Source: an uncultured Bacilli bacterium
Lineage (GTDB): Bacteria > Bacillota_I > Bacilli_A > RF39 > UBA660
Assembly (NCBI GenBank): GCA_947624175.1
Contig: CANQJD010000007.1
Span: forward strand, 1 to 36,857
Direction: 5' to 3'
Length of the DNA stretch: 36,857 nucleotides
Below are positions 606-20,698 of this stretch, piece by piece; within the stretch, counting starts at the first letter, position 1, and every line of letters starts with the position of its first letter. The notes beneath the pieces were generated by a model. The model had not been told where the DNA came from. It ran no database searches and saw only the letters and a program-made list of their open reading frames with translations. The position numbers and the translations under genes were made by a program.

Positions 606-1034
606 ATGGCAGTTATTAAATATACTGATAAAGAATTAGATTTATTAGCTAGACTAATGCGAGCCGAAGCATTAGGGGAGGGGAATCTTGGTATGTTAAT
701 GGTTGGTAATGTTGTTGTTAATCGGGCTATTGCTAATTGTTTAACTTTTAAAAATACAAGGTCTATCTATGATGTAATCTATCAATCTCCTGGAGGTTTT
801 GCTGGGGTTAATAGTTCGCTTTTTTATTCGGCTGCAACTAATAATGAAAAGAAACTTGCTAAAAGAGTATTAGATGGCGAATATTATTATCCAGCCACAA
901 ATGCTTTATGGTTTTATGCACCAGCTAGTGGTGCTAGTTGTGTTCCTTATTGGTATGAACAACGATTAAGTGGTAGTTATAAAAATCATTGTTTCTACGA
1001 ACCATATCCAGGTATTTGTAAAGAATTACATTAA
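606..1034 (+). CDS. SleB/CwlJ-type cell wall hydrolase (Hydrolase_2 family)
   Basis: LLARLMRAEALGEGNLGMLMVGNVVVNRA matches the ARxxxAEAxGE...VANVVxNR pattern of the SleB/CwlJ catalytic domain; RBS ggggg upstream. Confidence 0.8.
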   Translation: MAVIKYTDKELDLLARLMRAEALGEGNLGMLMVGNVVVNRAIANCLTFKNTRSIYDVIYQSPGGFAGVNSSLFYSAATNNEKKLAKRVLDGEYYYPATNALWFYAPASGASCVPYWYEQRLSGSYKNHCFYEPYPGICKELH

Positions 1035-1039
1035 CCTAT

Positions 1040-1062
1040 GAAGTCTAATGGCTTCTTTTTTT
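1040..1062 (+). terminator. Rho-independent terminator after the SleB-like gene
   Basis: GAAGTC-TAAT-GGCTTC followed by TTTTTTT. Confidence 0.7.
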
Positions 1063-1068
1063 GTCTTT

Positions 1069-1091
1069 AAAAAGGAAGTTTTTGACCTTCC
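1069..1091 (-). terminator. Rho-independent terminator of the fibre operon
   Basis: Minus strand GGAAG-GTCAAAAA-CTTCC followed by TTTTT. Confidence 0.65.
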
Positions 1092-1163
1092 TAATTAAGA
1101 ATATATTTTATATTACATTTGAGTAATATGAGCATTATCATCATATATATCTAGTAATTTTCT

Positions 1164-3362
1164 TTATATTCCAACAGTAGTATTACCTGTACCAACAGTT
1201 CCATAACCAGCAATACCACCACGACTACTATTACCAGTTATGCTAGAAGATTGATTTTTATTATTTGTAACTATACCACCAGATGAATTATTACCAACAA
1301 TTCCCCCAACATTTGCAATTCCTACAACTCTAGCCTCAGAAAAATTTGTATTATTATCTATAATTCCACCTTTTTTATTATAACCTGCTATTCCTCCAAT
1401 ATGTTTTCCCCAATAAGAACTTAAAGTACCACCTGGATTATAATGATGAATATAACCATGATTTTCACAATATTGAATAGTTCCTCCACCTTCAGATGAA
1501 CTTCCTCCACCATCAAGTTGCATACCAGAAAATCCTACTATTCCTCCAACATAACTTTCACCAGAAACTTCCCCATAATTCTTACATTTTGTAATTGTTG
1601 AATGAGACATCCAGGCTGTTATTCCTCCAGCCGGTCCAGAAAATTTAGTTGCATCTCCTGTAAAATCAGTAGAAACTCTTGCATTATTTGTACAATTACT
1701 TATTGTAGCATTAGCCGTTACATATCCTGCTATTCCTCCAGTATATGTATCTTCATCCATTGCTACCTCATCCAATGATACAACTTTTCCACTAACTGTT
1801 AAATTATCTAATGTTCCTCCTATTACTTTTCCGACAACAATCCCTGCAGTTTGATTATGATTTGTTACATCTGCTTCAGCAAGAGTTAAATTTTTAACAG
1901 TTGCTCCATTAGTAGTACCAAAGAAACCTATATTAATTTGCAATGATTTTTGAATAGTCAAATGAGATATAGTATGGTCTCCACCATTAAACACCCCTTG
2001 AAATGGATGGTCTAGTTCCCCAATCGGTAAAAATCCTGTATCAGAAGTTAATTCCTGATATACATTACCTTTTGTCTCATTTCCATTAATATCTCCATAA
2101 GCCATATTATCTGGATTTTCATAACTGCTTTTTTCACTAAAATCTAAATTTCTTGTTAATTTAAATCTTTCACCTTGAATATTTGCAACAGTAAGATTTT
2201 TTGGATTTGTTTTTCCCCTTATTGCTAAAGACATATCAACTAAATCTTCAACATATTGAATAGCACCATCTTGAGTTACCGTAAAATCAATATCAACTGT
2301 TTTAGTAATAGGACTAGTTGAAGTTACTCTTAATTTAAACTTTTTAGAAGGGTCTTCTAATTTAGATATATTTAAAGATAAATTTACACTTTGGTCGAGT
2401 TTACTACCACCTTTTATTGTTCCAGTTGTTGTTCCTGATAAAGCAAATTTAGAACTATCAATAACTTCAACTTTATAATTTCCATCAATATGATTAAAAT
2501 TAGTACCATCATTATTCTTTATTATTATATTAAAAGTTGTATTAGTAGTTAAAATGGTATTATAATCGGTAGTAGATGTCGTTCTTGGAAAGTTAACTGT
2601 CTTAACATTTGCCTCAACATAAAATTTAAAGTTTGTTATCACTACATCATTTTTAATATTATTTAAGGTAAAGTTTTTCTCACTAACAGTAAAACTAGTA
2701 TTACTTACTCCACCTACCGTTACATATAAATCATCTTTTTTTATTGTTTCATTAAATGTTACATTTAAATTATCTCCATCCATTATTTCAGTTGGATATC
2801 CGGCTGTACTTGAAAATCCTTTATATGTTGCTGTATGATAACTTCTAAAATCAAAATCTATTTTAAAATTAAAATTAGTATTATCAGCATTATATTGTCC
2901 ACTTTTATACTTTATTGTTATTTCAAATTCTTTTTTTATTCCTAATCTACATTGTCCACTAACATCACATATTTTTTCTTTTAATTTATAATCTTTTAAT
3001 TCATATTCTAAATTATCAGGTAATCCTGTTAATGAAAATATTCCCATCTCTGGTCCTTCAAAATTAGTTACTTCTACTTTATAAGTTACACTTGAATCAG
3101 AACTAGGTAATGTTATATTCCCATTTATATTTTTTACATTATAATCTTCACTATTAGATAAACCACCATTATTTGTTCCATTTGGTACAATACCTGTTAC
3201 TCTTATATCGGCTGGTACTCTAACTTCAGCTGCCATATTTATAGCTAATTTTTGCCCAAATACTGAAAAACCTATTGCTAGCATAAATACTCCTAAAACA
3301 ATAGATGTTATAATAATAGATAACTTATATTTATTAAAATCTACTTTTTTAAACTTTTTCAT
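1164..3362 (-). CDS. Large surface protein with SipW-type signal sequence and C-terminal GLUG-like repeats
   Basis: N-terminus ...LAIGFSVFGQKLAINMAAEVRV resembles the neighbouring subunit's GFAAFSQTLTIHSSAEVKP; C-terminal repeats GGIAGYVTANATISNCTNNARVS / GGIVGFSG / GGIAGYNKKGGIIDNNTN / GGIVGNNSSGGIVTNNKN / GGIAGYG. Confidence 0.75.
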   Translation of the reverse strand: MKKFKKVDFNKYKLSIIITSIVLGVFMLAIGFSVFGQKLAINMAAEVRVPADIRVTGIVPNGTNNGGLSNSEDYNVKNINGNITLPSSDSSVTYKVEVTNFEGPEMGIFSLTGLPDNLEYELKDYKLKEKICDVSGQCRLGIKKEFEITIKYKSGQYNADNTNFNFKIDFDFRSYHTATYKGFSSTAGYPTEIMDGDNLNVTFNETIKKDDLYVTVGGVSNTSFTVSEKNFTLNNIKNDVVITNFKFYVEANVKTVNFPRTTSTTDYNTILTTNTTFNIIIKNNDGTNFNHIDGNYKVEVIDSSKFALSGTTTGTIKGGSKLDQSVNLSLNISKLEDPSKKFKLRVTSTSPITKTVDIDFTVTQDGAIQYVEDLVDMSLAIRGKTNPKNLTVANIQGERFKLTRNLDFSEKSSYENPDNMAYGDINGNETKGNVYQELTSDTGFLPIGELDHPFQGVFNGGDHTISHLTIQKSLQINIGFFGTTNGATVKNLTLAEADVTNHNQTAGIVVGKVIGGTLDNLTVSGKVVSLDEVAMDEDTYTGGIAGYVTANATISNCTNNARVSTDFTGDATKFSGPAGGITAWMSHSTITKCKNYGEVSGESYVGGIVGFSGMQLDGGGSSSEGGGTIQYCENHGYIHHYNPGGTLSSYWGKHIGGIAGYNKKGGIIDNNTNFSEARVVGIANVGGIVGNNSSGGIVTNNKNQSSSITGNSSRGGIAGYGTVGTGNTTVGI

Positions 3363-3407
3363 ATAACTCCTCTATTTAAAAAATAAGTGAAATTTACTTC
3401 ACATATT

Positions 3408-4577
3408 TTAATTTAATACATTTCGACTTACAGTTTTATCTTCTAAATCAACAGCTTTTAAATAATATACATATACATCATCATTATCTTTTATATAAAA
3501 GTAACACTTTTGATGACTTGCTATATTATAATACATAATTGGTAACTTTAAATTATCTCTTACATCTAATAATTCTTGGAATTTATCTATACTAATAATA
3601 TGACTCTTATCCATATCAATACCAGTTGTTGTCTCAACAATTAATCTATCATATTCTCTTAATATCTTCTCTAAAATAGTATCATAAGGACTTTTCCTTC
3701 TATTTAACATCAATAATAATTTAATTATCTTTAATAAGAAGATCGCTGATATTATAAACAAAATACATTCTACTATAAAGATTTTACTATCAAAAATTAA
3801 CTTCTTATCAGTCATAATATTTTTAATTAATTTAGTATCTTTAGAATCAAAATTAATTTCAATAGCCTTTTCTGATAATGGTATTGTTATTTCAGAAGTA
3901 GCACTATCTTTTATATTAATATCTTTATCATTACCACCAGTTTTATCTACTTGTAAATAAACTTTTAAATAACTATTTGTATCAACCCCATATTGATTTC
4001 TAAAATTATTAGCTAATCTATTATAATAATCATAATCTATTTCTAAATCTTTATCTAAATTATAAACATTTTTATCATCTATTTTAGCAGTCTCTGTATC
4101 TAATAAAGTATAAGTTTTCTTAAAGAAATTAGTTGCTCCATTTACACTTGATATTACTAAATCTCCAAGTACTTTATAATTAAAATCTAAATCAACATTA
4201 GTATCAATATCAAAATCATAATTAAATGATAATTGTATTTTATCAATTAAACTTGCAACATATATCATTCCTTTATCTAGATAAGGAGTATCATAGAATT
4301 CATTTTCTTTTAAATAAACTTTATAATCAATAGTATTATTTTCTCTAAATTTAACAACTTTTGTATCTTCATATTCAAAAGATTTAGAAGCTAGGAATAA
4401 ACAAAGTGAGAATGCTATAACAAAGATTACAATATTTCTAACTAACCTTACATTATAACTAACATATTTTTTAAAATGTTTCTTCGTTGTAGGTTGTTTG
4501 GTTTCAGGTTCTTTTGAAACCTTTTTAGTTTGCTTTTTGACTTTTTCTTTTTCAGTTTCTTTTGCAATCTTTGTCAT
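3408..4577 (-). CDS. DUF5305-like membrane-anchored protein
   Basis: Two TM segments (VRNIVIFVIAFSLCLFLASKSF; FIVECILFIISAIFLLKIIKLLL) flank a beta-rich extracytoplasmic domain; C-terminal cytoplasmic segment; encoded next to the signal peptidase. Confidence 0.55.
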   Translation of the reverse strand: MTKIAKETEKEKVKKQTKKVSKEPETKQPTTKKHFKKYVSYNVRLVRNIVIFVIAFSLCLFLASKSFEYEDTKVVKFRENNTIDYKVYLKENEFYDTPYLDKGMIYVASLIDKIQLSFNYDFDIDTNVDLDFNYKVLGDLVISSVNGATNFFKKTYTLLDTETAKIDDKNVYNLDKDLEIDYDYYNRLANNFRNQYGVDTNSYLKVYLQVDKTGGNDKDINIKDSATSEITIPLSEKAIEINFDSKDTKLIKNIMTDKKLIFDSKIFIVECILFIISAIFLLKIIKLLLMLNRRKSPYDTILEKILREYDRLIVETTTGIDMDKSHIISIDKFQELLDVRDNLKLPIMYYNIASHQKCYFYIKDNDDVYVYYLKAVDLEDKTVSRNVLN

Positions 4578-4592
4578 TATATCCTCCTTTCA

Positions 4593-5720
4593 TTATAATT
4601 CATTTAACCATACAGTAGGTAGTCCCACGAATGGAACTTTTACACGAACAACACCAATCATCATGTCTTCAGTTATTTTGTAATCATCTATGTCCTCGTT
4701 CGCGTCTCCCTTACTATAAAAGTAATATTCTTCTCCAGATTTCATTTTTTTAACTAATCTATGTACAACAATTATGCCATCATATTCATAAGCTATAACT
4801 TGACCTTCCTGAACATTTTCAAATTTTCCATCAGTCTTTTCAATTATAACTACATCACCTTTATAAATATTTGGTGTCATACTTCCACTTGCAATAGCAA
4901 CAGCATAAAAATGGAAATATCCAGATGTTATATATACTAGAAATACTACAATAAGTAATGGTAATATCAAGGATACTGTTTTATGTTTATAATAGTCTCT
5001 TTCAATTTCTTTATCTTTTTCTTTTTCAAACCTTTTCCATATTTTATAACAGAATAGGGCAGGTACTATCAAAAAGATAACAGATGCAACATATTCATCA
5101 GGATTTGGAATAATTGGAAGTAAATATTTGTATAAATTAGTTACTAGTTGATAGATAATCGTTGGTTTATAGCCAACTTTCCTACTTACATAACTAAGTG
5201 ATATGTTAAGACTTATGGCCGGTAATAAATCAATTGCTAAAAATAGAAATATTTGATAGTTTGATTTAAAATCAGCATAGTATAAAGTTGTTGTTAAGTC
5301 TAACATAATAAATAGAATAACAGTAGTTGTAGTAAGCAATTTACTTCCTTCTGCTTTATTTAACATCATGTACCTTAAATATTCTTTTAGAACTATCGTT
5401 ATAATTAAAGGTAATATAAATAATGTAATACCTCTTAAAGTATAATAGTTGCTAACTCTTGCAAAACTTACAATTATTCCAAGTAAATAGAATAATATAA
5501 AGTAAATTAACAAGAAGATTATTTCTTCAAAAATAGCATCTTTTGTATAACGGTGTCTATCTTTTTCGAAACCAAAGAATATTTTAAAGACAACAAGTAC
5601 TATTATTAAGTATAAAGCTAACTTGTAATCGGTTAGTATACTTGATACAAAACTATTTAAGAGCAAAGTTATAAAAAGTATTATTTCAAATATAAGTAGT
5701 CTTTTATACCCTCTTTTCAT
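4593..5720 (-). CDS. SipW-like (S26B) signal peptidase I with a large N-terminal multi-TM domain
   Basis: C-terminal AIASGSMTPNIYKGDVVIIEK ... IVVHRLVKK ... YYFYSKGDANEDIDDYKI ... IGVVRVKVPFVGLPTVWL: Ser in SGSM, His in VVHR, typical of the ER/SipW-type Ser-His signal peptidases. About 250 aa of hydrophobic N-terminal sequence precedes it. Confidence 0.9.
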   Translation of the reverse strand: MKRGYKRLLIFEIILFITLLLNSFVSSILTDYKLALYLIIVLVVFKIFFGFEKDRHRYTKDAIFEEIIFLLIYFILFYLLGIIVSFARVSNYYTLRGITLFILPLIITIVLKEYLRYMMLNKAEGSKLLTTTTVILFIMLDLTTTLYYADFKSNYQIFLFLAIDLLPAISLNISLSYVSRKVGYKPTIIYQLVTNLYKYLLPIIPNPDEYVASVIFLIVPALFCYKIWKRFEKEKDKEIERDYYKHKTVSLILPLLIVVFLVYITSGYFHFYAVAIASGSMTPNIYKGDVVIIEKTDGKFENVQEGQVIAYEYDGIIVVHRLVKKMKSGEEYYFYSKGDANEDIDDYKITEDMMIGVVRVKVPFVGLPTVWLNEL

Positions 5721-5773
5721 TCTCTCCTCCCTAAATAGTCTTGTGCAAATATACTAGATATATTTGCTATATT

Positions 5774-6421
5774 TTAATCTTGTGATTTGTATAATAATTT
5801 AATATCACCAATCTCAACTGTAAAGTCACCATCAGCCACTCCTGAACCAGCAGTATATTCAATTTTAACTTCAACTTTTTCACCTGTCGCTTTTTTTAGT
5901 TCATGTTCGGTAATTGAAGGTTTTGATTCAGTAGTTGATTCAGTAGAATTTACAGTTACAGTTACTTTCATTCCTGTACAAGCAGCTGCAACTAAACCAG
6001 CATCTGTATCAGAGCCAGGCTTACAATTAATTGATGTACCAACTCCTGATGCATTTTGGTATGTAATAGATTTTAAGTAAGCATCATATTCTCCTTCATT
6101 TCTAACATAGAAAGTATAGGTTACATCTTGTCCTGGTTTAGTAAATTTTGCTTTTAAACCTGAAATTTCTGTATCACTAATAGTTGCTTGGTCAGCTGTT
6201 GCTCCAGCTTCTCCACCTGGTACTCCAGTAATTTCTTCAGTAGCTAATGATTCTTCACTTGATGAAAATTTTACATTAAAAGCTGTTTGGTCTGGTTTTA
6301 CTTCTGCACTTGAATGAATAGTAAGAGTTTGTGAAAAGGCAGCAAAACCTAATGATAAACCAATAACTGCAACAGTAAGTGCTATAATCGCCAAAATCTT
6401 AGAGTTTCTATCTCTTTCCAT
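5774..6421 (-). CDS. TasA/camelysin-like secreted fibre subunit (SipW-dependent type signal sequence)
   Basis: Start moved from 6469 to ATG at 6421, which has a strong AAAGGAGGTGAAATCG RBS. MERDRNSKILAIIALTVAVIGLSLGFAAFSQTLTIHSSAEVKP signal; beta-rich small secreted body with YTFYVRNEGEYDAYL (TasA-like 'partially averaged' pattern). Confidence 0.7.
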   Translation of the reverse strand: MERDRNSKILAIIALTVAVIGLSLGFAAFSQTLTIHSSAEVKPDQTAFNVKFSSSEESLATEEITGVPGGEAGATADQATISDTEISGLKAKFTKPGQDVTYTFYVRNEGEYDAYLKSITYQNASGVGTSINCKPGSDTDAGLVAAACTGMKVTVTVNSTESTTESKPSITEHELKKATGEKVEVKIEYTAGSGVADGDFTVEIGDIKLLYKSQD

Positions 6422-6505
6422 CGATTTCACCTCCTTTTTCTTTATTTTCAAGTGCAGGGGTAGTTTCAAATAGGTTTACTATTATCCTTACACTATCTAA
6501 CAACA

Positions 6506-6535
6506 ATTATAGCATATTTTGTCAAGTATAATCAA
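6506..6535 (-). promoter_or_regulatory. Candidate promoter of the fibre operon
   Basis: Minus strand TTGATT - 18 nt - TATAAT with extended -10 (TGCTATAAT). Confidence 0.6.
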
Positions 6536-6540
6536 TACTT

Positions 6541-6600
6541 TTAAGAAAAAAAGGTCGTTTTTTTTTTTTTTTTGAAATTCCGCCTTTTTTTGTATCTTAA
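6541..6600. repeat. Imperfect inverted repeat enclosing a 16-nt homopolymeric T tract
   Basis: ttaag...aaaaaaaggtcg - T16 - gaaattc - cgcctttttttgtatcttaa; arms TTAAGA(...)AAAAAAAGG / CCTTTTTTT(...)TCTTAA. Confidence 0.75.
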
Positions 6601-6684: not shown

Positions 6685-7434
6685 TTATTTCTTCTTACTT
6701 AAATTATCAAATGTTTTTAGAACTTCAACTGGTAAAGCAAAAATAACAGTATTTGATTGGTCACTACTTAAATCATTAATTGTTTCTAAAGTTCGAAGAT
6801 GAACAGCAATTGGATTTTCAGCAAGTTTATTAGCAGCCGTTGCTAAATTATTACTTGCTTCAACCTCACCTTTAGCCTTCGTAATAACGGCTTGTTTTTC
6901 ACGTTCAGCTTCTGCAACTCTAGCAATTACTCTTTTCATTTCTTCTGGTAAGGAAACATCTTTAAGTTCTACATTTTCAACTTTAATTCCCCAAGGGTCC
7001 GTTGCCTTATCAATTATCTCGCATATTTTATTAGAAATAACTTCTCTTTTGCTTAATAACTCATCAAGACTAACTTCTCCAACTGCATTACGCATCGTAG
7101 TTTGAGCAAGTTGACTTACAGCATAATAAAAGTTTTCAACTTCTAAAATGGCTTTACTAGCATCAAATATCTTATAGTAAATAACAGCATTAATCCGAAT
7201 TGAAACGTTATCTTTAGTAATAGCATCTTGTTCTGGTACATCAACAGCTTTAGTTCTTATATCAACTTTTTTGTATGATTGAAAAATAGGTAAAACTATA
7301 TGCCAACCAGGTTTAAAGACTTTACTATATTTACCAAATGTAAATTTAACACCTCGTTCGTATTCATCAACTTGTTTAATCGAAATTAAAATGATAAAGA
7401 TAAGTATGCCTAAGATTACATAAACTATCTCCAT
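6685..7434 (-). CDS. SPFH/band-7 (slipin/stomatin-like) membrane protein
   Basis: QVDEYERGVKFTFGKYSKVFKPGWHIVLPIFQSYKKVDIRT ... VENVELKDVSLPEEMKRVIARVAEAEREKQAVITKAKGEVEAS. Start placed at ATG 7434 (RBS AAAGGAG), not 7536. Confidence 0.9.
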   Translation of the reverse strand: MEIVYVILGILIFIILISIKQVDEYERGVKFTFGKYSKVFKPGWHIVLPIFQSYKKVDIRTKAVDVPEQDAITKDNVSIRINAVIYYKIFDASKAILEVENFYYAVSQLAQTTMRNAVGEVSLDELLSKREVISNKICEIIDKATDPWGIKVENVELKDVSLPEEMKRVIARVAEAEREKQAVITKAKGEVEASNNLATAANKLAENPIAVHLRTLETINDLSSDQSNTVIFALPVEVLKTFDNLSKKK

Positions 7435-7530
7435 AAATACTCCTTTCAATGTGTATAGTATAACATATTTTATTTTTTTTGTACATATTAAAGTATTTTT
7501 AAAAAAATTGTATAAAATTTGAATATTTTT

Positions 7531-7575
7531 GTTCAAATCGATTATTTTCCGTGTATATATTATATTAGGAAGAAT
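7531..7575 (+). promoter_or_regulatory. Copy A of a conserved intergenic element (shared with 28037-28084)
   Basis: GTTCAAATCGATTATTTTCCGTGTATATATTATATTAGGAAGAAT; closely matches the reverse complement of 28037-28084. Confidence 0.6.
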
Positions 7576-7657: not shown

Positions 7658-8632
7658 ATGTTATTAGAAAAAAAGAAGAATAAAAAGAATATTAAGGTTA
7701 GTAGAATGCAAAAATTAAAGGAAGGACTAAAACCAGGAGAGATAATCAGGCTTAGTTATGATGAGGCTTTCTGTATCATGTTTGGAAATCCTGATCATCT
7801 ATCAATTTTAACATCTCTTTTGTCTAAAATCTTACAAGTAGAGTATGAAGAGTTAGAGGGAAAAATAACTTTAATTCCAAGAAGCGTACCTAATGAAACG
7901 GTCGGAGAATATTTAACTGAAAGAGATGTTGTGGTTAAAATTGATACTAATGATGAGAAAAAAGTATTACTAGAAGTAAATATTAGGTCAGGATTTTATA
8001 ATAGTGTAATAAATAGGAATATTCATTATTTAGAAGAAGAAGCTGTAAGTGGAATATCTCAAAATACTAGTTATGAAGATTCAAGGACAGTTATTCTAGT
8101 AAACTTTAATAATTTTAGTATTCATGATAATGGAAAAATCTTTGATGAATATTTATATCGAAATGAAGAAGGAGAAATCTTAACTGATAAAAGAAAAATT
8201 TTGAATATAAATATTGAAAAATGTTATGATGCATGGTACAATAAAGATGTATTTAAAGGAGATTTCAACTCTTATGAAATGGATTTATTGCTATTATCAG
8301 CAGCTTTATGGACTAATCGTGAGGAAGAGTTTAGAAAAGTAATAGATAATATAGAAATAGATAAAAAGATAAAGAGAGAGATTATGGAGGTATTATTGAG
8401 AATGAAAGAGAATGCCGATTTGGTAAGAAGATACCGAGATTATGAACTTGAAGAAGAAAGAACTGAAAAGGGAATTAGAAATGAAATAAGAGAAAATGCC
8501 ATCAAAGAAACAAAACAAGAAATGGTACTTGCTATGTATACCAACAATGAACCATTTGATAAAATTCAAAAATATAGTGGTTTATCTCAAGAAGAGATAA
8601 AAGAAATAATTAATAATTCCAAAACTAGGTAA
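7658..8632 (+). CDS. Rpn-family recombination-promoting nuclease / PD-(D/E)XK transposase-like protein
   Basis: YDEAFCIMFGNPDHLSILTSLLSKIL ... LTERDVVVKIDTNDEKKVLLEVNI ... RNIHYLEE ... with the C-terminal charged tail and SLSQEEIKEII motif typical of the family. Confidence 0.8.
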   Translation: MLLEKKKNKKNIKVSRMQKLKEGLKPGEIIRLSYDEAFCIMFGNPDHLSILTSLLSKILQVEYEELEGKITLIPRSVPNETVGEYLTERDVVVKIDTNDEKKVLLEVNIRSGFYNSVINRNIHYLEEEAVSGISQNTSYEDSRTVILVNFNNFSIHDNGKIFDEYLYRNEEGEILTDKRKILNINIEKCYDAWYNKDVFKGDFNSYEMDLLLLSAALWTNREEEFRKVIDNIEIDKKIKREIMEVLLRMKENADLVRRYRDYELEEERTEKGIRNEIRENAIKETKQEMVLAMYTNNEPFDKIQKYSGLSQEEIKEIINNSKTR

Positions 8633-8639
8633 AGAGGTA

Positions 8640-8915
8640 TTGGTAAGAATGAATGAAGATGCCAGTTTGGTAAGAAAATACCGAGATTATAAACTTGAAG
8701 AAGAAAGAACTGAAAAAGGAATTAGGAATGAGATTTTAACTGAAGGAAAAGAAATTGGTCTAGAAGAAGGAAAAGATATTGGAAAAAAGCAAAAAGAACA
8801 AGAAATGGTTATAAACTTTTATAATCAAAATGTTCCTATTGATATTATTTCTAAAGCAAGTAGCCTATCACAGGAAGAGATAGAAGAAATAATTAATAAT
8901 TATAAAAGTAAATAA
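8640..8915 (+). pseudogene. Tandem duplicate of the 3' end of the Rpn-like gene (C-terminal fragment)
   Basis: MVRMNEDASLVRKYRDYKLEEERTEKGIRNEI...LSQEEIEEIINNYKSK parallels LLRMKENADLVRRYRDYELEEERTEKGIRNEI...LSQEEIKEIINNSKTR of the upstream ORF. Confidence 0.8.
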
Positions 8916-16546: not shown

Positions 16547-17401
16547 CTAAATTGTAACTAATTCTTTTGTTAATAATTCAATAACCAAATTAATTGCATT
16601 CATTATTTCATCATAATCAATATTAGATGCATAAGATTTTTTATTTTTATAATTTTTAAAATTTAATCTTAACTTATCACTTTCTTTTATTTTACTAAAA
16701 TTATATATGATTTTATCTATATCAAAAGCAGTTTTTCTTCTTTCAAAAGTGTTTTTAATTGCCTTTACTAAAACTTTTTTATCAATTTTATCATAATATC
16801 TAGTTAATAAAATATACAAATCATAAAAATCTTTCGTTCTTGTATTCATAATATTATCAGAAATGAATGTTTCAAATTTTTCAGCAATAATAGTTTCCAT
16901 ATTAAAAGCCATAATGTTAATATAAGAATCATCAAACATACATTTATATCTATATTCTAATTCTCTTGGAGTAATTGGATCACCTACTGTTATATCAATA
17001 GATAGTGGTACTTGTAAATGTTCTTTATATCCTAGAAGGTTTACTCTAATTCCTCCATATTTATCATTTAATCTTATTTCGCTTAATTTCTTTAAACTAT
17101 AACTTATTCCATCTTCACAATCTATATTAATTATCTCATTTATAACTTTTTCTATTTTCCTTGCATCGAGTGGAATTCCTTTTATCATAGTATCCATATC
17201 TTGTGTAGTTCTACGATTATCACCAAATATTGCTGATAGTAATAATCCACCTTTTAATATAAAATTGTATTTATATGCACTTATTGATATTCTATATAAA
17301 AGTCTTTCAAAAAAATACATTTGCATAATATCTTGAGGTTCTAAGTTATTTTCATGGGCTTTAGTCTTTACTTTAATTTTTAAATCTTCAGCATCAATCA
17401 T
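16547..17401 (-). CDS. abiEii: AbiEii-type nucleotidyltransferase toxin
   Basis: FILKGGLLLSAIFGDNRRTTQDMDTMIKG (KGGxxL...RxTxDxD); NMETIIAEKFETFISDNIMNTRTKDFYDLYIL, typical of AbiEii. Confidence 0.88.
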   Translation of the reverse strand: MIDAEDLKIKVKTKAHENNLEPQDIMQMYFFERLLYRISISAYKYNFILKGGLLLSAIFGDNRRTTQDMDTMIKGIPLDARKIEKVINEIINIDCEDGISYSLKKLSEIRLNDKYGGIRVNLLGYKEHLQVPLSIDITVGDPITPRELEYRYKCMFDDSYINIMAFNMETIIAEKFETFISDNIMNTRTKDFYDLYILLTRYYDKIDKKVLVKAIKNTFERRKTAFDIDKIIYNFSKIKESDKLRLNFKNYKNKKSYASNIDYDEIMNAINLVIELLTKELVTI

Positions 17402-17994
17402 TATATTAGCATCTCCAAATATTTATTGATATCATCTAGAACATTAAATTTTTTAGCATAATCAAGAAGTAAGGGAAAATTTCTCTTATTTTTATTCTTC
17501 AAATATTCTGTTATAGCATATTTAATTATTTCTATATCCTGATTATCTTTATTTTTTAATAAATCACATATACATCTTTCTGCATTATAACATTTTACAA
17601 ATTGTCCTTGAGGACTTTTCATCTCTATTATTCCTAAATCAAACACTTCTTTTTTCACGAAATGTAGTTTCACTTTTTTTATTTTCCTTAAACTTCCATT
17701 ATATCCCCTATTTACTGTAATATGATATTCACTTGGAACTGACTGGCAAAGGTCTAAAAAATATAAAGCTGTTTCATAAGAAAAAACTGCATTATTTCCA
17801 TAAATTAAATTGAAATATTCATCACCCCAAGTAGAAGGCAAAACATATAAACCTTTTTTTACTCTTTCTAGTTTTTTATTATTAACTAATCTTGTCAAAA
17901 AAATCTTATTTATATTTTTGCTTACTACTTCTTTTGTGGTAATAATTCCATTATTTTTTTTAGCTAAATTTAATATAATATCTTCTTTATTCAT
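17401..17994 (-). CDS. abiEi: AbiEi-type antitoxin / transcriptional regulator
   Basis: LAKKNNGIITTKEVVSKNINKIFLTRLVNNKKLERVKKGLYVLP wHTH; stop codon overlaps the AbiEii start by 1 nt (TAATG). Confidence 0.85.
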   Translation of the reverse strand: MNKEDIILNLAKKNNGIITTKEVVSKNINKIFLTRLVNNKKLERVKKGLYVLPSTWGDEYFNLIYGNNAVFSYETALYFLDLCQSVPSEYHITVNRGYNGSLRKIKKVKLHFVKKEVFDLGIIEMKSPQGQFVKCYNAERCICDLLKNKDNQDIEIIKYAITEYLKNKNKRNFPLLLDYAKKFNVLDDINKYLEMLI

Positions 17995-18205: not shown

Positions 18206-20698
18206 TCATTTTCCGCAACAGTTCTTGTATTTCTTACCACTGCCACATGGACAAGGGTCATTTCTTCCAACTTTTTCTTTTTTCTTTATAGGTTGTTTAG
18301 TTGTTCCTTCTTCAGTATCATTAGTAATTTGTTTTTTAACAACTTCTTTTCGTTCAATATTTTGTCTTATCTCGGCTTTTAATAGGAAGACTGTTGTATC
18401 TTTATCAATCTTATCAAGCATATTTTCATATAACTCTAAACCTTCCATTGTATAGGCTCTTAAAGGGTCTTCTCCACCATAACCACGCATTCTAACTGCT
18501 TCTCTTAAATGTGATAAGGTGTTAATATTTTCAGTCCAATATTTATCTATAACATTTAAACTAATTGCTTTTTCAAACTCATTAGCAACCTCGATAGGTA
18601 AAACACTTAACTTATCTTCATATTCTTTTTTTACTTTATCATAGATAAAATCAATCATATCATCTGGTTTTAAATCTTCAATATCTTTTAGTTTAATATC
18701 TTTCTTTAATAGATTTTGATTCGTAATATCTAAAATATCTTTTAAATCTTCTTCATTTATCTTATTATCAGTAAAATGAGTATCGACTAAATAAGTAATA
18801 TAAGAATTAATTGTCTCTAAAACTGTATCATGAATTGAATCATTATCTAAAATTTCATTTCTTCTTTCATAAATATCTTCTCTTTGATTATTCATGACAT
18901 CATCATATTGTAGTAAAGCTTTTCTAGTATCAAAGTTATTACCCTCAACTTTTGCTTGAGCACTTGATAAAGCTTTTGTAAAAGTTTTGCTTCTAATGGC
19001 TTGGTCTTCTTCAAATCCCATAGTTTGTAGTAATCCTTTAATTCTATCAGTTCCAAACCTAACCATTAATTCATCTTCCATTGAAACAAAGAATTGACTT
19101 TCTCCTGGGTCTCCTTGACGACCTGAACGACCTCTTAACTGGTTATCAATACGCCTTGATTCATGTCTTTCAGTACCAATTACACATAATCCACCTAAAG
19201 CTTTCGTTTCTTCAGTTAATTTAATATCGGTTCCACGACCAGCCATGTTTGTTGCTATTGTAACTGCACCTTTTTCACCAGCCCTAGCAATAATTTCAGC
19301 TTCACGAGCATGGTTTTTAGCATTTAAAACCTCATGTTTAATACCTTTTTTCGTTAACATACTACTAATTAATTCACTGGTTTCAACTGCAATCGTACCA
19401 ACTAGAATAGGTTGACCTGTTTTATGTTTTTCTTCAATTACTCTAACAATTGATTTATATTTACCTTTTAAAGTTGGATAAACTAAATCAGCATAATCAA
19501 TTCTTGCAACTGGTTTATTAGTTGGAACAGTAATAACATACATATTATAAATATTTCTAAATTCTTCTTCTTCAGTTTTAGCTGTACCAGTCATACCTGA
19601 TAATTTTTTATACATTCTAAATAGATTTTGGAAGGTAATTGTAGCAACCGTTTTGGTTTCTTGGTTAATCTTAACGCCTTCTTTTGCTTCAACTGCTTGA
19701 TGTAATCCATCACTCCATTGTCTTCCTTTCATAACCCGACCTGTAAATGGATCAACGATTAATACTTCACCATCTTGCACTACATAATCAAAGTCTTTCT
19801 TCATTGAATAATTAGCTTTTAAGGCTTGATTAATATAATGGACTAGTTCGGAATTACGCATATCATATAAGTTATCTATTTTAAAGAACTTTTCGGCTTT
19901 AGCATTACCTTCATCGGTTAAAGTAACTCCTTTAGTTTTTTCATCATAGATATAGTCATCATCATTTTTTAAACCTTTAACAAACTTATCAGCCTCTAAA
20001 TAAAGGTTAGCACTTTTAAGTTCACCACCTGAAATAATAAGGGGAGTTCTAGCCTCATCTATTAAAATTGAATCAACTTCATCGATGATTGCATAGTTAA
20101 GTCCTCGACCAACTCGATTTTCTTTTCTAATAACCATATTATCTCTTAAATAATCAAACCCAAGTTCATTATTAGTTGTATATAAGATATCACAGTTATA
20201 TTGTTCTTTCTTTTCACTAGGCGATAATTCTCTTTTATTAACCCCAACACTTAAACCTAAACCTTCATAAATAGGGCCCATCCATTCAGCATTTCTGACT
20301 GTTAAGTATTCATTAACCGTTACAACATGAACTCCATCACCCGTTAAAGCATTTAAGTAGGCTGGAAATGTTGTTACTAAAGTTTTACCTTCACCTGTTT
20401 TAAGTTCAGCAATATTTCCATAATGAATAGCAATTGCCCCAACTAATTGCACATAGAAGGCTTTTTCACCTAATTTTCTATATGCCATTTCGCGAACCGT
20501 TGCATAGGCTTCAACTAAAAGATCATCAAGGGTTTCTCCATTTTTTAATCTTTCTTTAAATTCATCTGTTTTCTCTCTTAACTCTTTATCAGTCTTTTTT
20601 TGATATTCTTCATCTAATGCTACTATTTTATCAGCTAAAGCATTAAATTTTTTTAATTCTTTATATTCATGGTCTAATAATTTTTTAAATATATTCAT
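18206..20698 (-). CDS. secA: Preprotein translocase ATPase SecA
   Basis: MRGYGGEDPLRAYTMEGLELYENM, GEGKTLVTTFPAYLNAL, IDEVDSILIDEARTPLIISG, ATNMAGRGTDIKL; C-terminal SEC-C zinc motif CPCGSGKKYKNCCG. Confidence 0.98.
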   Translation of the reverse strand: MNIFKKLLDHEYKELKKFNALADKIVALDEEYQKKTDKELREKTDEFKERLKNGETLDDLLVEAYATVREMAYRKLGEKAFYVQLVGAIAIHYGNIAELKTGEGKTLVTTFPAYLNALTGDGVHVVTVNEYLTVRNAEWMGPIYEGLGLSVGVNKRELSPSEKKEQYNCDILYTTNNELGFDYLRDNMVIRKENRVGRGLNYAIIDEVDSILIDEARTPLIISGGELKSANLYLEADKFVKGLKNDDDYIYDEKTKGVTLTDEGNAKAEKFFKIDNLYDMRNSELVHYINQALKANYSMKKDFDYVVQDGEVLIVDPFTGRVMKGRQWSDGLHQAVEAKEGVKINQETKTVATITFQNLFRMYKKLSGMTGTAKTEEEEFRNIYNMYVITVPTNKPVARIDYADLVYPTLKGKYKSIVRVIEEKHKTGQPILVGTIAVETSELISSMLTKKGIKHEVLNAKNHAREAEIIARAGEKGAVTIATNMAGRGTDIKLTEETKALGGLCVIGTERHESRRIDNQLRGRSGRQGDPGESQFFVSMEDELMVRFGTDRIKGLLQTMGFEEDQAIRSKTFTKALSSAQAKVEGNNFDTRKALLQYDDVMNNQREDIYERRNEILDNDSIHDTVLETINSYITYLVDTHFTDNKINEEDLKDILDITNQNLLKKDIKLKDIEDLKPDDMIDFIYDKVKKEYEDKLSVLPIEVANEFEKAISLNVIDKYWTENINTLSHLREAVRMRGYGGEDPLRAYTMEGLELYENMLDKIDKDTTVFLLKAEIRQNIERKEVVKKQITNDTEEGTTKQPIKKKEKVGRNDPCPCGSGKKYKNCCGK

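Follow-up and report, generated by a model that had tools for sequence, protein, structure and literature searches.

Fibres whose export depends on a SipW-type signal peptidase, and whose assembly is independent of sortase, have been proven for Bacillus subtilis TasA (PMC9674648, PMC10151520), Clostridium perfringens BsaA (PMC7395162) and Bacillus cereus TasA/CalY/CapP (PMC13082335). TasA, AbpX and ABP form donor-strand-exchanged fibres, with the N-terminal segment of the mature subunit serving as donor strand (PMC11952670, PMC9674648). TasA with Phe at P2' is a poor substrate of the P-type peptidase LepB and is cut by the ER-type SipW (PMC10269814). The conservation of TapA is incomplete even inside the genus Bacillus (PMC10151520).

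The window analysed here, a 36,857-nt stretch from an uncultured Bacilli bacterium, carries a four-gene operon (Table 1) that its computed homologies and conservation make probable as an operon for a donor-strand-exchanged surface fibre of the TasA/archaeal-bundling-pilus type. It shares with tapA-sipW-tasA of B. subtilis a SipW-type ER peptidase beside a small subunit (here, a putative beta-sandwich) with a signal cut (here, predicted to be cut) before A-F, an expected donor-strand fibre, and another secreted partner whose N-terminus is similar (TapA in B. subtilis, the large protein in the window). In contrast to that operon, ours has a DUF5305 gene and no TapA, its partner protein is large with a subunit-like head, its sequence match to TasA is marginal (E 0.22), and its peptidase carries ~200 aa of additional membrane sequence relative to the ~190-aa Bacillus SipW model. 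The best solved relative is AbpX of Pyrodictium, from the archaeal bundling pili (9sj2, 9rhp), which has a matching mature N-terminal strand and a donor-strand-exchanged fibre, although the host here is bacterial and the SipW long. The sipW-bsaABCRSD operon of C. perfringens provides a 23-kDa matrix protein whose export and polymerisation depend on SipW and not on sortase (PMC7395162), but includes a two-component system, and no DUF5305 is described there. Sortase-independent assembly in the B. cereus sipW-calY/tasA-capP system involves two camelysin-type subunits and a dedicated third protein (PMC13082335, PMC10151520); that protein, CapP, is however cell-wall chaperone-like rather than a DUF5305 protein, and the system has no large subunit-domain adhesin. 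Finally, signal peptidase I and DUF5305 loci on plasmids of Halostagnicola, Natrialba, Halocatena and Halobaculum also have a SipW-type peptidase and DUF5305 adjoining, but their subunit genes are not recognised by our small-subunit profile and they contain no such large protein.

Operon layout

The initial annotation had described four co-directional genes with short gaps, and this arrangement stands. All four lie on the minus strand between 6421 and 1164 at the positions first assigned to them, separated in gene order by 53, 15 and 45 bp, and each is preceded by a strong GGAGG-type ribosome-binding site (RBS). The proposed distal terminator was likewise recovered, as a terminator-like hairpin with a U-run after the last gene. 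The proposed single upstream promoter has a plausible candidate at 6535-6506 (TTGATT-18-TGcTATAAT), although promoter-like matches in this region are not commoner than in shuffles (57 versus 51.6 +/- 7.3). Upstream, an SPFH/band-7 gene (6685-7536) ends before the operon; downstream, a gene at 606-1034 is convergent with it.

Table 1. Features of the putative fibre operon, with positions in the window and the evidence for each
Feature	Positions	Strand	Evidence
Putative small fibre subunit, TasA/AbpX-like, 215 aa	5774..6421	(-)	RBS + ATG; family profile vs AbpX; signal motif statistics
Long SipW-type (S26B, ER-type) signal peptidase, 375 aa	4593..5720	(-)	TIGR02228; alignment of 18 relatives; SEC11A profile match
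DUF5305 protein, 389 aa	3408..4577	(-)	PF17231; hydropathy of 48 homologues; motif 0/47
Large subunit-domain protein, 732 aa	1164..3362	(-)	hhalign heads vs small subunits; sub-threshold GLUG; C-terminus check
Rho-independent terminator-like hairpin, 3' of operon	1067..1098	(-)	MFE -10.6, z -2.8
Candidate extended -10 promoter, TTGATT-N18-TATAAT	6506..6535	(-)	Consensus scan, not above chance frequency

Small subunit, shared signal and signal peptidase

The small subunit starts at the ATG at 6421, with AAAGGAGGTG just before it; a longer ORF reaching 6469 from a TTG is not needed. Its signal is of the SipW type, with a predicted mature start at A28 (GFA/AFSQTLTI), and the mature protein combines a donor-strand-like N-terminus with a KPGxxVTYxFxVxNxG core. 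The 215-aa protein alone matches no curated family. When a profile built from 46 homologues was searched against the whole PDB, AbpX (9sj2) was the only significant match (E=8e-9 over the mature length), the alignment beginning at mature residue 2 (WSETLSLSATIS versus FSTTLTITGTA), whereas TasA was matched weakly (E 0.22). The BsaA model TIGR04090 also matches the small subunits weakly. These comparisons support membership of the TasA/archaeal-bundling-pilin superfamily with AbpX, not TasA, as the closest solved relative. The original description of the protein as TasA/camelysin-like is thus upheld for the superfamily relation and not for the named families: the window subunit is unmatched by the Pfam camelysin model PF12389, which hits 8 of 25 relatives (best 5e-4), and does not reach the cut-off of NF046066 (TasA/camelysin), which matches two relatives (best 6e-4). 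AlphaFold models built from window sequences alone had pLDDT values of 44.5 (the small subunit, from two window sequences) and 41.4, and Foldseek with these low-pLDDT models returned generic beta-sandwiches only. Compared with haloarchaeal SipW-dependent proteins by hhalign, the subunits aligned in the signal region alone (1.9%), a match that was discarded as evidence.

The signal regions of the first and last operon proteins do match, as had been noticed at the outset (GFA/AFSQTLTI and GFS/VFGQKLAI; BLASTP 4e-5). We defined the motif as an aromatic P2, a small P1 and a bulky hydrophobic P2', then x3-hydrophobic-x-hydrophobic, and found it in 65 of 75 TasA-like proteins (51/60 small, 14/15 large), compared with 8 of 177 other exported ORFs with an N-terminal hydrophobic stretch, taken as controls, and none of 47 DUF5305 proteins. 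Among motif carriers, P2' is F in 31, L in 25, Y in 7 and W in 2. The SipW-dependent signal models TIGR04088/04089/04090 matched only few members, and weakly. Taken with the TasA/LepB precedent, the shared bulky P2' residue suggests that the first and last operon proteins, but not DUF5305, are likely clients of the long SipW-type peptidase.

That enzyme had been annotated as a SipW-like signal peptidase, which our searches confirm. It matches TIGR02228 (archaeal-type signal peptidase I) above the cut-off at 1.6e-20, against 1.8e-8 for the bacterial P-type model, and S280, H320, D339 and D345 are invariant in an alignment of 18 homologues; the invariant S280 and H320 fit an ER-type Ser-His arrangement rather than Ser-Lys (PMC10269814). 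Its profile finds human SEC11A/C as the best solved matches (SEC11A 7p2p at 1.6e-21). Ahead of the catalytic domain lie ~240 aa of polytopic, mostly hydrophobic membrane sequence. With 50.6 bits against a cut-off of 190 for the SipW equivalog NF046067, the peptidase is of the same type but no orthologue of Bacillus SipW. The genome of the window encodes one P-type signal peptidase (PF10502, 3.5e-47), so the long SipW-type peptidase comes on top of the general enzyme; a second long SipW copy and a short SipW-type copy are also present.

Large subunit-headed protein, DUF5305 and conservation of the cassette

The large protein consists of a SipW-type signal (GFS/VFGQKLAI), a TasA-like N-terminal domain, a beta-rich middle and C-terminal GLUG-like repeats. 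Its first designation as a GLUG-repeat protein is half sustained: repeats of the GGI(A/V)G type can be seen directly in the sequence, but the Pfam GLUG match (E 0.0013, 19.4 bits) falls below the cut-off of 20.5 and the label is therefore sub-threshold. A head of ~130 residues directly after the signal (...DIRVTgv...LPN.nStITY.V.ITN...) is common to 16 large proteins. With signal and donor strand removed, these heads align with the small subunits in hhalign at 97.4% (E 1.4e-11), as against 0.1% for DUF5305 as negative control, and a head profile detects small subunits directly, up to 2e-12. A mature-only HMM of small subunits misses the window large protein, whose homology is detected by profile-profile comparison. 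These alignments identify the N-terminal domain of the large protein as a diverged version of the fibre subunit. What follows the head is highly variable, the bodies spanning 404-2589 aa and including InlB-type repeats, fn3 and GLUG-like parts as well as unassigned sequence. In 15 large proteins we found neither an LPxTG signal nor a C-terminal TM segment, and LPxTG is also absent from the window subunit, so that the mark of a sortase-assembled pilus, LPxTG on subunit or adhesin, was not seen. Four sortases are encoded elsewhere in the genome. The large protein had been proposed as an accessory partner; it is present and shares the signal, but its subunit-like head makes it more than an accessory, probably a minor or tip/terminal subunit carrying a variable adhesive body. 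Such a protein occurs at 16 of 48 DUF5305 loci and is not obligatory, many cassettes being without one.

The third gene was correctly assigned to DUF5305, matching PF17231 at 6e-11 (42.6 bits; gathering cut-off 29). Two TM segments (42-69 and 259-293) are predicted to flank an external domain of ~190 aa, followed by a conserved C-terminus predicted to be cytoplasmic (hydropathy of 48 homologues). A sequence-based comparison with solved structures found no relative, the hhalign control showed that DUF5305 is no subunit-like domain, and the window protein gave no match to a kinase, a DNA-binding domain or a known signalling domain; some homologues have extra C-terminal domains (DUF285, MshEN). 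DUF5305 was named in no paper found in an open-access literature search. The original label 'anchor' is unproven for this membrane protein, which has two TM segments and lacks a signal of the SipW type.

The conserved neighbourhood in relatives by which the annotation was to be checked is evident. A long SipW gene lies at most two genes away on the same strand at 41 of 48 DUF5305 loci, and a TasA-like gene lies within four genes at 39. Four of the seven loci without the peptidase are at contig ends (L033, L045, L055, L058), leaving three lone DUF5305 genes off contig ends (L046, L087, L089). Across 58 genomes, the 2 x 2 counts for long SipW and DUF5305 are 20/1/2/35 (p 2.5e-12), a value that is descriptive as the genomes are related; in the one genome counted with SipW alone, DUF5305 is present after all, at the end of its contig (L073). 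Distances between SipW sequences correlate with those between DUF5305 sequences (Mantel r 0.89), compared with r 0.57 for DUF5305 and subunits. Within this family of small-genome bacteria, 21 of the 35 genomes sampled have DUF5305, against 1 of 23 outside it. The genome of the window has a second, diverged cassette (L048), and another genome (G327) has two in tandem (L077).

Outside the family, the peptidase and DUF5305 are paired in a further two families of Bacillota (L075, L076) as well as on a haloarchaeal-looking contig (L074). On the haloarchaeal plasmids named above they are adjacent or one gene apart, the Halocatena locus also carrying DUF1102; in Haloferax they are about six genes apart. 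Four further haloarchaeal plasmid clusters (L060-L062, L064) encode the peptidase together with SipW-dependent proteins and lack DUF5305, which is therefore not universal with SipW. The initial annotation suggested that DUF5305, together with the large protein, replaces a TapA-like accessory. None of the four operon genes gave a TapA-type match. DUF5305 is, however, no local substitute for TapA: its pairing with SipW-type peptidases in haloarchaea and in other bacterial families makes it an old partner of the peptidase. It is better stated that SipW-DUF5305 pairs are widespread and that TapA is a local solution of Bacillus.

Proposed fibre assembly and its alternatives

The small proteins could instead be a secreted, non-polymerising matrix or decoy of camelysin-like character, with SipW and DUF5305 as a dedicated secretion-release pair and no fibre. 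Fibres are not known from the host lineage, and the Ig-like core (KPGDxVxYxxxIxNxG) is generic, with DUF11/CARDB/CBM matches. However, the AbpX profile alignment extends over the mature N-terminal donor-strand region, the large proteins bear the same head, which would be sensible for co-assembly, runs of 3-4 consecutive subunit paralogues (L080, L082) resemble multi-subunit fibres, and the C. perfringens analogue BsaA polymerises SipW-dependently (PMC7395162); we regard a fibre-less system as improbable. The large proteins could also be independent surface adhesins that have only the export route in common with the fibre. Their widely differing lengths and domains, and their absence from many cassettes, would suit such adhesins. 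Yet a subunit-homologous head follows the signal in every large protein examined, although mere export would not need it, and proteins with neither LPxTG nor a C-terminal TM segment would have no other known means of cell retention. An existence outside the fibre thus appears unlikely.

A role for DUF5305 as regulator or sensor of the operon, rather than as structural platform, deserves a little more credence but is still doubtful. Its external domain would sense the subunit and its conserved cytoplasmic C-terminus would signal, an arrangement that its two TM segments and the extra C-terminal domains of some homologues would accommodate; dedicated sensors can control SipW operons, such as BsaRS in C. 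perfringens (PMC7395162). Against this stand its tighter co-evolution with the peptidase than with the subunits and the window protein's lack of any recognised signalling domain.

We postulate for the favoured fibre operon that small subunit and large protein alike would be exported by Sec, their cleavage regions with bulky hydrophobic P2' residues suiting a signal peptidase of the ER type and not of the P type. Both would be cut by the long SipW-type enzyme, exposing an N-terminal strand (AFSQTLTI... or VFGQKLAI...) that could insert into the beta-sandwich of a neighbouring subunit and so let the small subunit polymerise. Through its subunit-like head, the large protein may join this polymer, probably in a minor or terminal position and with a variable adhesive body. 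DUF5305, an uncut membrane protein with an external domain, would most likely form the assembly or anchoring site together with the peptidase.

More tentatively, and with somewhat less than even confidence, we propose that an old peptidase-DUF5305 membrane module of archaea and bacteria is the platform of donor-strand fibres, that DUF5305 is the missing counterpart of TapA/CapP, and that the fibres of this bacterial family end in a giant variable adhesin with a modified-subunit head. TasA and the archaeal bundling pili represent a matrix-fibre design common to bacteria and archaea, of which the initiation, anchoring and adhesive end are poorly known beyond Bacillus. The peptidase and DUF5305 cassette, found from haloarchaea to small-genome Bacillota, supplies a candidate for the missing platform that can be put to the test, and the large subunit-headed proteins are candidates for a class of fibre adhesins of uncultured bacteria.

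Gene context of the operon

The second ORF of the transposase-family pair repeats the C-terminal region of the PF12784 ORF preceding it, which looks like the result of duplication or breakage.

Features of the window outside the operon
Feature	Position	Strand	Remark
Small SleB-type cell-wall hydrolase (PF07486)	606-1034	+	Convergent with the operon
Hairpin with T-run	1040-1055		Beside the SleB-type hydrolase gene
PD-(D/E)XK transposase-family ORF (PF12784) and second ORF	7658-8915	+	
AbiEii/AbiEi-type toxin-antitoxin (abortive infection) pair	16547-17994	-	Directly downstream of secA
secA	18206-20698		
BspA-type leucine-rich-repeat protein, 671 aa	22468-24483	-	

A related cassette and a possible peptidase fusion

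The same genome carries another TasA-like/long SipW/DUF5305 cassette (G000:C4, ~23.9-26.6 kb; L048:8880-11479), which shares ~25% identity with that of the window, lacks the large subunit-domain protein and is followed by a polysaccharide deacetylase-like gene. On a plasmid of Arthrobacter sp. TMP15, a SipW-type peptidase forms part of a single 852-aa protein annotated as Ig-like (L063:4845-7403), possibly a fused peptidase-fibre protein; beside it lies a small protein that bears a SipW-like signal.

DUF5305 in other loci

One contig (L074, G109:C49) is haloarchaeal in character, with acid-rich proteins, TAT-like signals and a strong DUF5305; since its genome is filed in the window's class, the contig is probably a binning contaminant. 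In a locus from another Bacillota family, the DUF5305 protein adjoining a SipW-type peptidase bears a C-terminal MshEN domain (L075:6837-8774). MshEN is known from type IV pilus ATPases, and its presence here might suggest that cyclic nucleotides control the system.
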